From NCBI GenBank assembly GCA_035498015.1, contig DATKAO010000244.1:1-35436 (forward strand): a DNA stretch of 35,436 nucleotides. The letters run 5' to 3'. The DNA is from Myxococcota bacterium. GTDB taxonomy: Bacteria; Myxococcota_A; UBA9160; SZUA-336. This document shows, in pieces, positions 3,029 to 30,139 of this stretch (the stretch's first letter is position 1; each line of letters begins with the position of its first letter). The notes under the pieces are model-generated. The model was given only the letters and a program-made list of their open reading frames with translations. It did no database searches and had not been told where the DNA came from. Both the position numbers and the translations under genes were made by a program.

Positions 3029-4650
3029 GCGAGCTGGCCTGGCCGTGGCTCGCGGCCGCCGCGGTGACTGCGCTGGCGCTGCACTCCGCGTGGCGCGGCC
3101 GGCGTGAGCTGTGCGCGTGGCTGGGCCGGGACCCGGCGGGCCGGCGGCGCATGGCGGGCGCGGCGGCGCTCGCGCTCGCCGCGGGCTGTCTCGCGGCCGC
3201 GCTGCAGCGCGCGGTCAGCACGCCCGAGGAGCACTCGGGCGCCGGGGCCGACGTGGTGCTCGCGGTCGACGTGTCGCTCAGCATGGACGTCGCCGACGTC
3301 GCGCCCTCGCGCCTGCGGCGCGCGCTGCGCACCGCCGAGCGCGTGGTCGAGCACGCAAAGGGCGAGCGGCTCGCGCTGGTCGTGTTCTCGGGCGACGCGT
3401 TCATCGCGCTGCCGCTCACGCAGGACCGCGACGCCGTGCTCACCTATCTGCGCGCGCTCGACAGCGACACGATCTCGCTGCGCGGCAGTGAGCTCGGGCG
3501 CGCGCTCGAGCAGGCCGGACGCGCCTTCGACCCGCGCTCCAGCCGGCCGCGCACGCTGCTCTTGTTCAGCGACGGCGAGGACTTCGGCGCGCCGCCCGAG
3601 TCACAGATCGGCGAGCTGCGGGCGCTGGGCGTGCGCGTGGTCGCGATCGGCTACGGCACCGCGGAGGGCGGGCCCGTGCCGGGCCAGGCCGCGCTGGCCG
3701 AAGCGGTGCGCAGCGGCGAGAGCACCGTGTCGCGGCGCAACGACGGCCTCTTGCAGCACATCGCCGACGGCACCGACGGCGCGTACTTCCGCGAGATCGA
3801 AGCGCGGCCCGGGCCCGAGCAGCTCCTGCCGCCGCGCGAGGCGCAGGCCTCGCCGGCGCCGCCGCGTCCGCGCGACTCACTGGCCCCGTTTCTGGCTGCG
3901 GCCGCCGCTGCGCTCGCCGCGGAGATCTGGCTCTCGGGCGGCGGCTTGCGCGCGCGCCGGCGCATGACTCGCCGCGCGCACGCCGCTGCGGCGGCCAGCG
4001 CGGCGCTGGCGCTGGGCGCGTTCGGCGAGGGCAGGCTCGTCGCGCGCGGAGACGAGGCGCTCGAGGCGGGCAAGCCCGACGAAGCGCTCGCGCTCTACCA
4101 CGAGGCCGCGGCCACGCTCGAGCGCGACCCGCGGCTCTCGATCCGCATCGGGAACGCGCTCTACCGGCTCGAGCGCATCGACCAGGCGGCGAGCTCGTAT
4201 CTCGAGGCGCTGCGCCTGCTCTCGTCCGACGACCCCGAGGCGCGCTTCGCGGCCAGCTTCAATCTCGGCAACACGTTCGTCGCCAAGCAGCACTTCGAAG
4301 AGGCGCGCGACGCGTACTGGGCGGCGCTGGTCGCCGATCCCACGAGCCTCGAGGCGAAGTTCAACTACGAGTGGGCGGTGGCGCACATCCTGCCCACGCC
4401 GCCCCCGCCGCCCCAGCCCGAGCCGTCGAACGAGCCCAAGCAGAGAGACAGGGACTCCGGCCAGGGCGAGTCGAGTGACCCGCGCCCGCGGCAGAGCGAC
4501 GCGCGCCCCGAGCGCGGCTCGCTCGACCAGCAGGAGGCGCGCAAGTGGCTCGACACGCTCGACGAGCCGGTGGGCGACGCGCTGCGCCAGGAGATCACGA
4601 ACGCGACCGGCGGGCGCCCGCGCGCCCACCCGGGCGGAAAGACGTGGTGA
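3025..4650 (+). CDS. BatB-BatC fusion: VWA domain plus TPR domain
   Basis: A single 541-residue frame combines what are often two genes. Residues 1-60 hold two membrane helices. Residues 75-270 form a VWA domain with MIDAS residues (DVSLS from Asp82, then FSDGEDFG). A third helix lies near 290-308. From about residue 314, a second signal-like hydrophobic stretch leads into TPR repeats (about 330-455), ending in a Pro/Asp/Arg-rich, probably disordered tail. BatB is the VWA partner of BatA; BatC is the TPR scaffold. An internal ATG at 3964 sits exactly where a separate BatC would begin, so independent internal initiation is possible. The GTG start overlaps the batA stop. Confidence 0.85.
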   Translation: MSELAWPWLAAAAVTALALHSAWRGRRELCAWLGRDPAGRRRMAGAAALALAAGCLAAALQRAVSTPEEHSGAGADVVLAVDVSLSMDVADVAPSRLRRALRTAERVVEHAKGERLALVVFSGDAFIALPLTQDRDAVLTYLRALDSDTISLRGSELGRALEQAGRAFDPRSSRPRTLLLFSDGEDFGAPPESQIGELRALGVRVVAIGYGTAEGGPVPGQAALAEAVRSGESTVSRRNDGLLQHIADGTDGAYFREIEARPGPEQLLPPREAQASPAPPRPRDSLAPFLAAAAAALAAEIWLSGGGLRARRRMTRRAHAAAAASAALALGAFGEGRLVARGDEALEAGKPDEALALYHEAAATLERDPRLSIRIGNALYRLERIDQAASSYLEALRLLSSDDPEARFAASFNLGNTFVAKQHFEEARDAYWAALVADPTSLEAKFNYEWAVAHILPTPPPPPQPEPSNEPKQRDRDSGQGESSDPRPRQSDARPERGSLDQQEARKWLDTLDEPVGDALRQEITNATGGRPRAHPGGKTW

Positions 4651-20666: not shown

Positions 20667-21241
20667 GGCTCGACCTCGAGGTCGCGGTCGGCCTCGACCT
20701 CGGCGCGCTTGGCCGCGATCCAGGCGCGATACTCGGGGCCGTCCCAGGCGCGGTGCAGGCCGCGCGCGTAGTGACTCGCGTTGCGCTGGTACTGCCAGGC
20801 GTTCAGCCGGTTCTCGCGCGACGCGTCGCGCGTGGCGATCACTCTGGCCGGCACGCCCACCAGGATGGAGCCGGGCGGAAACACCTTGCCTTCGGGCACG
20901 AGCGCCCCGCCGCCCACGATCGAGCCCTTTCCGATCACCGCACCGTCCATGATCGTGGCGCCGATCCCGATCAGGCAGTGGTCGCCGATCGTGCAGCCGT
21001 GCACGGTCGCGCGGTGCGTGATCGAGCAGAAGTCACCGATCACCGTGCGCGCGTCGTAGCCCACGTGCAGCATGGCGAAGTCCTGGATGTTGGTCATGCG
21101 CCCGATGCGCACTTCCTGCGCCTCGGCGCGAATGACCGCGTGCGGCCAGAGACTCGCGTGCGCGCCGATGGTGACCCGGCCGTAGATCTGCACGCCGGGG
21201 GCGATCCAGACGGATCCGTGAATCGACTGGAGAGACTCCAC
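20663..21241 (-). CDS. Gamma-carbonic-anhydrase family hexapeptide-repeat protein
   Basis: A protein of about 192 residues forming a left-handed beta helix, with hexapeptide turns such as IGRMTNIQDFAMLHV, VIGDFCSITHRATVHGCTIG and CLIGIGATIMDGAVIG. The histidines in MLHV and THRATVHG match the zinc ligands of gamma-carbonic anhydrases and their YrdA/CaiE/PaaY relatives. The C-terminus adds an unusual charged helix (EYRAWIAAKRAEVEADRD). No ATG lies near the family start; GTG 21241 fits best, with TTG 21250 as an alternative. It is the first gene of the minus-strand operon and is divergent from asd. Confidence 0.82.
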   Translation of the reverse strand: MESLQSIHGSVWIAPGVQIYGRVTIGAHASLWPHAVIRAEAQEVRIGRMTNIQDFAMLHVGYDARTVIGDFCSITHRATVHGCTIGDHCLIGIGATIMDGAVIGKGSIVGGGALVPEGKVFPPGSILVGVPARVIATRDASRENRLNAWQYQRNASHYARGLHRAWDGPEYRAWIAAKRAEVEADRDLEVEP

Positions 21242-27736: not shown

Positions 27737-28840
27737 TCAGGCGGCCACGGGAGTGTCCGGCGCGGGCCCCACGTAGCGCGACGCGGGCCGGATGAGCCGC
27801 CCGCCGCGCGCCTGCTCGTCGACGTGCGCGAGCCAGCCCGCGACGCGCGCCACCGCGAAGGTGGGCGAGAACAGCTCCTGCGGCAGCCCGATCGCGTCGA
27901 GGATCACCGCCGTGTAGAACTCGACGTTGGCCGCGAGCCGGCGCTCCGGGCGGCGCTCGCCCAGCGACGCGACCGCGACCGCCTCTACGGCGCGCGCCAG
28001 GTCGAGCCGGTCGCTGCGCAGACCGCCCGTGCGCAGCCGCTCCACCGCGCGCTCGAGCACCGCCGCACGCGGGTCGCGCACGCGGTACACGCGGTGGCCC
28101 ATGCCCATGATGCGCCGGCCCGCCGCGAGCTCGTCGGCGATCCAGCCCGCCGCGCGGCCGGGCGTGCCGATCGCGTCGAGCATGGCCAGCACCGGCCCGG
28201 GCGCGCCCCCGTGCCTGGGGCCCTTCAACGCGCCCAGCGCCGCCACCACGGCCGACACCGGGTCCGACTCCGTCGACGCCACCACGCGCGCGGTGAAGGT
28301 CGAGGCGTTCATGCCGTGATCGGCGGCGGTCACGAGATAGGCGTCGAGCGCCTGGCTGCGCGCGGGATCAGTGCCGTGTGCGCTGGCCATGCGCAGGTAG
28401 TCGGCAGCGTGCGAGAGGCTCGGGTCGGGCGCGAGCGCCGGGACGCCGCGGCGCTTGCGCGCCCAGGCCGCCGCGAACACCGCCACCGCGGCCGTGAGCT
28501 CGACGTGCAGCTCCGCCGGGTCGATCGCGCTGGCGCGCAGGTGCGCGAGCGCCGCGCGCAGACACTCCATGCCGTCGGCCCCCTCGAGTGAGTCGCCCAG
28601 GTGGGGCAAGCGGCCGAACGCGCGCACGCGCGCGCGCCCCAGGCTGGCCCGCAGCGCCGCGTGCTCCGCCGGCGCCGGCAGCGCTCCGTGCCAGAGCAGC
28701 GCGCACACCGCCTCGAAGTCGTTGGCGAGCGCGAGCGCTTCCACGTCGTGCCCGCGAATCACCAGCCGCCCGAGCTCGCCGTCCACGTCGCTGAGCTGGG
28801 TGTCGGCTACCACCACGCCTTCCAGACCGTCCGAGGTCAT
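27737..28840 (-). CDS. Citrate synthase / 2-methylcitrate synthase
   Basis: A 367-residue type-II citrate synthase fold. Residues seen are the oxaloacetate-binding His175 (TAADHGMNAST), catalytic His210 (GPRHGG), His249 (GMGHRVYRVRDPR) and, at the position of the third catalytic residue, Glu307 (NVEFYTA) instead of the usual Asp. It condenses acetyl-CoA or propionyl-CoA with oxaloacetate; the sequence does not decide between the two. It is somewhat shorter than classical GltA because the N-terminal domain is trimmed. ATG 28840 has AGGAGA upstream. It is divergent from a second citrate synthase fused to a DNA-binding domain, with a palindromic operator-like site between them. Confidence 0.88.
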   Translation of the reverse strand: MTSDGLEGVVVADTQLSDVDGELGRLVIRGHDVEALALANDFEAVCALLWHGALPAPAEHAALRASLGRARVRAFGRLPHLGDSLEGADGMECLRAALAHLRASAIDPAELHVELTAAVAVFAAAWARKRRGVPALAPDPSLSHAADYLRMASAHGTDPARSQALDAYLVTAADHGMNASTFTARVVASTESDPVSAVVAALGALKGPRHGGAPGPVLAMLDAIGTPGRAAGWIADELAAGRRIMGMGHRVYRVRDPRAAVLERAVERLRTGGLRSDRLDLARAVEAVAVASLGERRPERRLAANVEFYTAVILDAIGLPQELFSPTFAVARVAGWLAHVDEQARGGRLIRPASRYVGPAPDTPVAA

Positions 28841-28887
28841 CGCTTTTCTCCTGGTTGTTGGCTCTTACGTTGCCGCTTCCGCTGGAC

Positions 28888-28905
28888 TTGATCAACGTTG
28901 ATCAA
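28888..28905. promoter_or_regulatory. Perfect 18-bp palindromic operator between divergent citrate synthases
   Basis: TTGATCAACGTTGATCAA is an exact palindrome made of two copies of the octamer TTGATCAA, itself palindromic, whose starts are 10 bp apart. A further TCAATCAAG follows to 28914. This AT-rich site stands out in GC-rich DNA and lies in the 84-base gap between the two starts. If the left octamer serves as the -35 (TTGATC, 28888-28893), AGATAT at 28913-28918 is 19 bases away, the long spacing typical of MerR-controlled promoters. The N-terminal HTH of the adjacent fusion is the natural candidate ligand. Confidence 0.7.
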
Positions 28906-28924
28906 TCAATCAAGATATCGTTCC

Positions 28925-30139
28925 ATGAAGCGGGACGACCGGATGAGCTCGCGCGAGGCGGCGGACTTCCTCGGGATCAAGCTCGAGACCCTGTACGCGT
29001 ACGCGAGCCGGGGGCTGGTGGCGGGCGCGCGCGCGGCGGGCGAGCGCGGGCGGCGGTACACACGCGCCGATCTCGAAGGGCTGCGCGCGCGCGCCGCCGG
29101 GCCCGCGGCCTCGGCGCTGCGCTTCGGCGAGCCGGTGCTCGACACGCGCATCACGCGCTTGACTCCCGAGGGTCCGGAGTACCGGGGCCGGCCCGCGGTC
29201 GAGCTGGCGCGCGCGGGTACGCCGTTCGCCGCGGTCGCCGAGCTGCTGTGGACCGGCGCCCTGCCGGAGCGCCGCCCGCACTGGCCGGAAGGCCCCGCGC
29301 TCCCGGCGCGCGAGCTGGCGCGGCTCGTGCCGCGCGACGCGTCGCCGCTGGCCGCGCTGGCGCTCGCGCTGCCGGCGCTGGCCGCCGCCGACCCGCTGCG
29401 CTTCGACGCGCGCCCCGAAGCCGTGTGCGAGCGGGCGCGGCGGCTGATTCCGCGCCTGGCGGCCTCGCTCGCGCTGGCGCTCGATCCGGGGCGCGTGCCG
29501 GCGGCGCTGGCCGCGACCGATCCCACGCGCGCGCTCGCCGCTGCGCTCGGCGTGCCGGCGCGCGGCAAGTCACTCGCGCTGCTCGAGACCGCGCTCGTGC
29601 TCCTGGCCGACCACGAGCTGAACGCCTCGACCTTCGCGGCGCGCGTGGCGGCGTCGACCGGCGCCGACCTGTACGCGTGTCTCTCGGCCGGGGTCGCCGC
29701 GCTGTCCGGCCCGCTGCATGGCGGCGCCAGCGAGCAGGTCGAGATGCTCGTGCGCGAGGCGGGCGATCCGGCAGGCGCGGCCGCCGCCGTGCGCGACCGC
29801 ATGCGGCGCGGCGAGTTACTGCCGGGCTTCGGCCACCCGCTCTACCCCGACGGCGACCCGCGCCACCCGCCGCTGTTCGCGGCCGCGCTGGCCCTCGCCC
29901 CCCGCAGCCCGCGCGTGCGCACGATCGCGGCGATCGTGGCGGCCATGGAGGCCGCGGGCCGGGCCCGGCCCAACGTCGACACCTCGCTGGCCGCAGCCTG
30001 CGCCGCGCTCGACCTGCCCCAGGGCCTGGGCGGCGCCCTGTTTGCGATCGGCCGGTCAGCCGGCTGGGTGGCCCACGTGCTCGAGCAGAGTGAGACGAAG
30101 GCCGTTCTGCGCCCGCGCGCCCGCTTCATCTCCGATTGA
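28925..30139 (+). CDS. Citrate synthase fused to an N-terminal MerR/excisionase-type HTH
   Basis: A 404-residue protein (from ATG 28925). Residues 7-55 form a helix-turn-helix (SSREAADFLGIKLETLYAYA, then RRYTRADLEGL, as in MerR/HTH_17 domains). The rest is a citrate synthase fold with His230 (LADHELNAST), His265 (GPLHGG), His304 (GFGHPLYPDGDPR) and Asp352 (RPNVDTSLA), so the catalytic triad is retained even though the usual FYS after Asp is TSL. It may be an active enzyme, a regulator sensing citrate-synthase substrates, or both. A TTG at 28898 also opens the frame but lies inside the palindrome; ATG 28943 is another choice. No good Shine-Dalgarno is visible. Confidence 0.87.
   Translation: MKRDDRMSSREAADFLGIKLETLYAYASRGLVAGARAAGERGRRYTRADLEGLRARAAGPAASALRFGEPVLDTRITRLTPEGPEYRGRPAVELARAGTPFAAVAELLWTGALPERRPHWPEGPALPARELARLVPRDASPLAALALALPALAAADPLRFDARPEAVCERARRLIPRLAASLALALDPGRVPAALAATDPTRALAAALGVPARGKSLALLETALVLLADHELNASTFAARVAASTGADLYACLSAGVAALSGPLHGGASEQVEMLVREAGDPAGAAAAVRDRMRRGELLPGFGHPLYPDGDPRHPPLFAAALALAPRSPRVRTIAAIVAAMEAAGRARPNVDTSLAAACAALDLPQGLGGALFAIGRSAGWVAHVLEQSETKAVLRPRARFISD

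Follow-up and report, generated by a model that had tools for sequence, protein, structure and literature searches.

Organisation of the divergent locus

The window, by which we mean the whole 35,436-nucleotide stretch of Myxococcota DNA analysed here, contains two divergent genes whose starts (28840 on the minus strand and 28925 on the plus strand) are separated by an 84-bp gap with a GC content of 48%, compared to 73% for the window. The rightward gene (28925-30139, plus strand; 404 amino acids from the ATG at 28925) combines a MerR-type HTH with a citrate synthase according to both Pfam and AlphaFold2, and we refer to it as HTH-CS. Its leftward partner (27737-28840, minus strand) is a citrate synthase without an HTH, which matched PF00285 and NF009005 above cut-off and has Glu at the D375-equivalent position. 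The catalytic positions of citrate synthase are given here as H274, H320, D375, and R401, in the numbering of the pig enzyme. Glu was present at the catalytic Asp375 position in 69/69 of the aligned partners having that residue, and HTH-CS proteins mostly have Asp there. Another citrate synthase homologue is present elsewhere in the window's genome (G000:C256:12339-13499, minus strand), with an in-frame TAG within the match.

In HTH-CS, Pfam places HTH_17/MerR_1 (PF12728/PF13411) at residues 7-54, with a score of 24.1 bits for PF13411 over a cut-off of 21.6, and PF00285 at residues 68-398 (7.4e-68). The AlphaFold2 model, built from a 42-sequence alignment, has a pLDDT of 91 and consists of a winged HTH (residues 6-57; 28940-29095, plus strand), an interdomain linker that is predicted to be disordered (residues 60-69; 29102-29131, plus strand; pLDDT below 50), and a citrate synthase fold from residue 77 (residues 77-398; 29153-30118, plus strand), in which H265, H304, and D352 occupy the H274, H320, and D375 positions; alignment and Foldseek also support this fold. 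Whole-chain Foldseek searches of the model returned citrate and methylcitrate synthases, and the isolated HTH best matched DNA-binding domains of the MerR superfamily (BldC, SoxR, NmlR, RacA, and GlnR, many of them with DNA), with weak E-values of which the best was 0.004. None of the 60 PDB matches listed spans both domains, all of them starting at residue 71 or later. The coiled-coil dimerisation helix of MerR is absent from the model, in which the citrate synthase fold follows the residues predicted to be disordered.

An AT-rich palindrome in the intergenic gap

The window contains exactly two copies of the octamer TTGATCAA, one at 28888-28895 and the other at 28898-28905, which are joined by CG into the perfect 18-bp palindrome TTGATCAACGTTGATCAA (28888-28905), as described in an initial annotation that also correctly placed it between the divergent starts. 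Directly 3' of it lies TCAATCAAG (28906-28914), which the annotation treated as trailing sequence and which contains the third arm of the conserved element described below. The 18-mer is present in a single copy in the 4.5-Mb genome when up to three mismatches are allowed. The annotation had put the odds of such a palindrome at well below one in a thousand, which is wrong: first-order Markov shuffles of the window yielded 1.6 perfect palindromes of at least 18 bp per shuffle, and a second perfect 18-bp palindrome, the GC-rich CGCGCGACGCGTCGCGCG at 20815-20832, is present in the window as expected by chance. Its remark that the palindrome is AT-rich in GC-rich DNA held, with no palindrome of comparable composition (at most 6 G/C of 18) in 200 shuffles. 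As a bare palindrome 28888-28905 is unremarkable and is rare only in its AT-rich composition; the evidence for the significance of the element at 28888 is its conservation.

We could not reproduce the promoter with 19-bp spacing that had been annotated here, and a scan for sigma-70 promoters with spacings of 16-18 gave none in 28780-29000. Placement of a -10 by eye was inconsistent across clades. An RNA hairpin or terminator was considered as well, but no terminator-like site was found.

A three-armed element is conserved upstream of HTH-CS genes

To obtain related loci we collected homologues from 58 related genomes (59 including the window's own) and 80 named contigs, which gave 102 distinct loci, the counts of which are not independent because many of the loci are close relatives (Bosea, Bradyrhizobium). 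The window's own entries (L001 and L002), L008 and L014 (on contigs shared with L044 and L037), and citrate synthases without an HTH (L027-L031) were dropped before counting. With nothing but the 27 bases of the annotated feature (28888-28914) as a query, 62 of the 102 loci had their best ungapped match, out of the whole locus, in the 200 bp preceding HTH-CS, compared to an expected 3.6. The element resolved from the alignment was present upstream of HTH-CS with a score of at least 12/14 in 89/102 loci, compared to 3/1747 random control windows, and a strict regular expression (TTGA[TA] allowed) matched in 63 of the 102 gaps, with a single match outside them in 649 kb and none in 20 whole-locus shuffles. 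Seven further loci have an element that is recognisable by eye (L019-L023, with a core spacing of one base, and L042 and L045, with a score of 11), leaving six without one (L025, L049, L050, L055, L056, and L073), all of which have an intact recognition helix. L073 has no operator upstream of HTH-CS, but an operator sequence, TCAATCTTGAACATTCAATCAA, lies at 4279-4300 (minus strand), approximately 40 bp past the point where the match to the gene ends, as if it had moved. Loci with the element bear the titles Myxococcus, Corallococcus, Burkholderiales, Rhizobiales, Caulobacter, and Novosphingobium.

Alignment of the loci resolved the conserved unit as ATCAA/TCAA-N2-TTGAT-N5..8-ATCAA. In the window the predicted operator (28892-28913, plus strand; pattern TCAANNTTGATN{5,8}ATCAA, with two sites in the genome) reads TCAA, CG, TTGAT, CAATCA, and ATCAA in succession. 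Information content and spacing counts delimit three arms: arm A (28891-28895), which is ATCAA on the plus strand and TTGAT on the minus strand; arm B (28898-28902), which is TTGAT on the plus strand; and arm C (28909-28913), again ATCAA on the plus strand and, like arm A, assigned to the minus strand, 6 bp after arm B. The outward ATCAA-N2-TTGAT pair formed by the first two occurred in 41/102 gaps and nowhere else in the loci, and for the inward TTGAT-ATCAA spacing the 102 gaps showed peaks at N7, with 37 loci, and N6, with 10. The distance to arm C differs between lineages, from 4 to 8 bp, a variability that one rigid dimer would not usually show. A median of 10 bp separates the end of the operator from the first in-frame HTH-CS start downstream of it; in many loci arm C comes to 1-11 bp from the start codon (11 bp in the window), and in many Bradyrhizobium and related loci the ATG is 1 bp from the operator or overlaps it.

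The two octamers, which the annotation took to be a unit phased at one helical turn, fared differently. Of the 90 sites aligned, 25 have the first octamer intact, 10 have the second, and only the window and L033 have both, and on this alignment we reject the phased octamers as the functional unit; the 18-bp palindrome is a lineage-specific form of the operator's left part. Because the spacing of arm C varies between lineages, strict helical phasing is likewise not a common property of the element.

Conservation of the HTH and loss of catalytic residues

The recognition helix and the SRG that follows it (residues 20-30, LETLYAYASRG; 28982-29014, plus strand) are conserved across an alignment of 105 HTH-CS proteins. 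Excluding L089, which stops after 24 residues, Y24, Y26, S28, R29, and G30 are identical in 104/104. The excluded sequence (L089 3001, Rhizobium sp. Leaf262) has a frame that stops within the recognition helix and is either a pseudogene or a sequencing error.

Conservation of the active site is less complete, with one or more of the H274, H320, D375, and R401 positions altered in 12 of the 104 proteins. Eight of these 12 retain the operator (L057, L064, L075, L078, L090, L103, L106, and L115p). In L115, a second HTH-CS of Chelatococcus, the H320 and D375 equivalents are both replaced, and a perfect operator is present beside a divergent luciferase-like monooxygenase gene. The HTH-CS of the window keeps all four positions, so catalysis remains possible; since the catalytic residues are intact here and in 92/104 members, HTH-CS may also, or even mainly, be an enzyme.

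The element accompanies HTH-CS rather than its neighbours

Of the 102 loci, 70 have a citrate synthase as the divergent partner. The element was found with a score of at least 12/14 in all 70 of these and in 19 of the 32 loci without this partner. Relatives with the same gene pair thus show the footprint on which the annotation had staked its central guess, that the gap between the divergent starts holds a regulatory dyad; this part of the annotation is supported, and the octamer unit and the promoter are not. Elsewhere the element is kept beside divergent genes for a methyltransferase (L035), a TctC-type receptor (L103), a cupin protein (L106), a CoA-transferase, and a luciferase-like monooxygenase.

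At the level of genomes, the exact pattern was found in 12 of 25 relatives with HTH-CS compared to 1 of 34 without it (59 genomes when that of the window is counted in; G054, whose match is partial and sits at the edge of a contig, was scored as lacking HTH-CS). Thirteen of the 15 exact sites in these 59 genomes adjoin HTH-CS, the exceptions being a site in G014 and a possible trans site in the window's genome, and the element is close to unique per genome. Among Rhizobiales, HTH-CS is encoded in 20 of 121 genomes and the exact pattern lies within 50 bp upstream in 17 of the 20 (it is absent upstream in G117, G152, and G166); 24 of the 41 exact sites in this order are not at HTH-CS and constitute background. 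In Burkholderiales we detected 14 genes of the HTH-CS type in 11 of 150 genomes, six of them with the exact pattern upstream and a seventh (G200) with a probable site that is a partial match, leaving about half without the exact pattern upstream; here 28 of 35 exact sites lie elsewhere than at HTH-CS. The background of the exact pattern in these lower-GC orders is approximately 0.2 sites per genome.

The distribution of the gene pair is patchy: a genome of the same genus (G001) lacks HTH-CS, its best matches being other citrate synthases. The nearest HTH-CS relatives of the window, L032 and L033 (71% and 66% identity; partners 75%), come from metagenome-assembled genomes titled Ideonella sp. 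That genomes labelled as a betaproteobacterium are closer than the window's own family suggests either transfer or mislabelled bins. No HTH-CS was found on plasmids at an E-value of 1e-30.

The genome of the window has only one more exact site (G000:C79:620-641). A family III CoA-transferase gene, truncated by the end of the contig, starts at 588, 31 bases from the edge of this site. A homologous CoA-transferase (57% identity) is divergent from HTH-CS in Paraburkholderia (G065, L114), with the operator between the two genes in matching orientation, and G320, another Burkholderiales genome, is arranged likewise (CoA-transferase at 163823-165184 on the minus strand, operator at 165293, HTH-CS at 165330 on the plus strand). 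These two genomes are the only ones of 26 CoA-transferase places at which an exact operator adjoins the gene. G001 has a CoA-transferase homologue (67%) and lacks both HTH-CS and the operator, and the 58 nearer relatives contain one unrelated exact site. Given the background of other orders, the site in G000:C79 is suggestive of a trans site of the HTH-CS operator rather than proof of one. No relatives of the CoA-transferase were found in viral contigs.

Comparison with the citrate synthases of Caulobacter

When the two C. hibisci proteins were compared with PDB 2c6x (Bacillus subtilis CitA), the HTH-free partner scored 234 bits and HTH-CS 94 bits. In Caulobacter crescentus, as here, two adjacent citrate synthase genes (CitB and CitC) accompany the main one (CitA), and the parts of PMC7083601 used here report that CitB replaces E. 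coli GltA, that the adjacent CitC fails to do so, and that the two have 37% and 32% identity to B. subtilis CitA, respectively. Because the C. hibisci partner is the closer of the pair to B. subtilis CitA, matching the higher identity of CitB than of CitC, the sequences suggest that CitC is probably the HTH-CS; the primer names in the main text of PMC7083601 do not indicate which gene it is. Unlike our description of the HTH-CS locus, those parts of the account mention neither an HTH nor an operator.

Alternative explanations for the element

A palindrome arising by chance and serving no function would be in keeping with the frequency of perfect 18-bp palindromes in shuffles of this GC-rich window, but the conservation of the element across phyla refutes it and its AT-rich composition was unmatched in the shuffles, such that we assign this explanation a negligible probability. 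A site for a regulator of the CRP/FNR family (FNR, Anr, FixK), with HTH-CS an incidental neighbour, has in its favour that the consensus of this family is TTGAT-N4-ATCAA, its half-sites are identical to the arms described here, and FixK/FNR boxes are common in Rhizobiales. However, the N4 spacing occurred in only 2 of 102 gaps and is absent from that of the window, and N7 and N6 prevail among the loci instead; the additional outward pair of 41 loci forms no part of such a box, and the element tracks HTH-CS genes across genomes. We therefore reject an FNR/FixK site on spacing and regard it as very improbable.

The element could also belong to the divergent citrate synthase or to another adjacent gene and be read by an unlinked regulator, and its presence in every locus with the partner, compared to 19/32 without it, is compatible with this. 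Yet those same 19 loci keep the element in the absence of that partner, it co-occurs with HTH-CS across genomes, and G001 lacks both despite its CoA-transferase homologue; this possibility is improbable, if slightly less so than an FNR/FixK site. The alternative we consider the least remote, though still unlikely, concerns the mode of action, with HTH-CS acting not by repression but as a MerR-style activator, through the twisting of an over-long spacer in the promoter. The winged HTH is of the MerR type, and TTGATC at 28888 followed by AT-rich DNA 19-20 bp downstream resembles a MerR promoter by eye. Against this, the promoter scan at spacings of 16-18 recognised nothing in 28780-29000, the position of arm C so close to the start codon in many loci is downstream of that expected for a MerR activator site, and the model is without the MerR coiled-coil helix.

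A predicted operator of a putative enzyme-derived regulator

We consider it likely that 28892-28913 is the operator of HTH-CS, a putative one-component regulator derived from an enzyme, which probably represses its own gene and controls the divergent one. Readable in the sequences are the architecture of genes and domains and the operator itself, which goes with HTH-CS independently of the neighbour and is retained where catalytic residues are lost. Beyond these, we infer physical binding, repression over activation, an oligomer on DNA, and a ligand. HTH-CS, as a dimer or larger assembly formed through the citrate synthase body, would bring its winged HTHs to the TTGAT arms, thereby covering the promoter region shared by the divergent genes. 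As the operator abuts or overlaps the HTH-CS start, bound protein would cover its own transcript start or promoter, which favours autorepression, together with control of the divergent gene, as the likeliest effect. The fixed ATCAA-N2-TTGAT pair and variable third arm suggest either a dimer on two arms with another subunit on the third, or a linker that lets one dimer span differing distances. Binding of substrate (an oxo acid and/or acyl-CoA) by the citrate synthase body may relieve or reverse the effect.

Several known systems resemble this arrangement. Members of the MerR superfamily (SoxR, NmlR, and CueR, as well as BldC, RacA, and GlnR, which are without a classical sensor) have the same type of winged HTH and an inverted-repeat operator at the regulated promoter, whereas in HTH-CS a whole citrate synthase joined by a disordered linker replaces the coiled coil and small sensor, and the operator is built of three TTGAT arms, one spacing between which is variable. 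BirA, NadR, and PutA are further examples of regulators derived from enzymes, and HTH-CS likewise has a DNA-binding domain on an enzyme fold and a conserved operator beside its own gene and target. MocR/GabR proteins (HTH and aminotransferase; EnuR, PMC8739950) share a DNA-binding domain on a complete enzyme fold and a gene often divergent from its target, with ligand sensing by the enzyme pocket to be expected. HTH-CS would work like MocR/GabR and is not a member of that family: the enzyme is a citrate synthase, the DNA-binding domain is of the MerR type, and the catalytic residues are mostly kept and lost in some. Full-text searches of freely readable journal articles listed no description of this protein class or its operator.

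With somewhat less assurance, we favour the broader view that HTH-CS is a citrate synthase turned transcription factor, whose active site would sense the central oxo-acid/acyl-CoA pool and pass the signal directly to DNA. Through an operator that has been maintained in Alphaproteobacteria, Burkholderiales, and Myxococcota alike, it would control another citrate synthase or acyl-CoA/tricarboxylate genes; in some branches, having lost catalytic residues, these proteins may have become pure regulators. In soil bacteria, symbionts, and myxobacteria, in whose genomes HTH-CS genes look like extra citrate synthases, the fold of the enzyme at the entry to the TCA cycle would then be tied directly to the control of genes. 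This reading provides a defined 22-bp site for testing the regulator and its ligand, and could explain why Caulobacter and rhizobia have a third citrate synthase gene.
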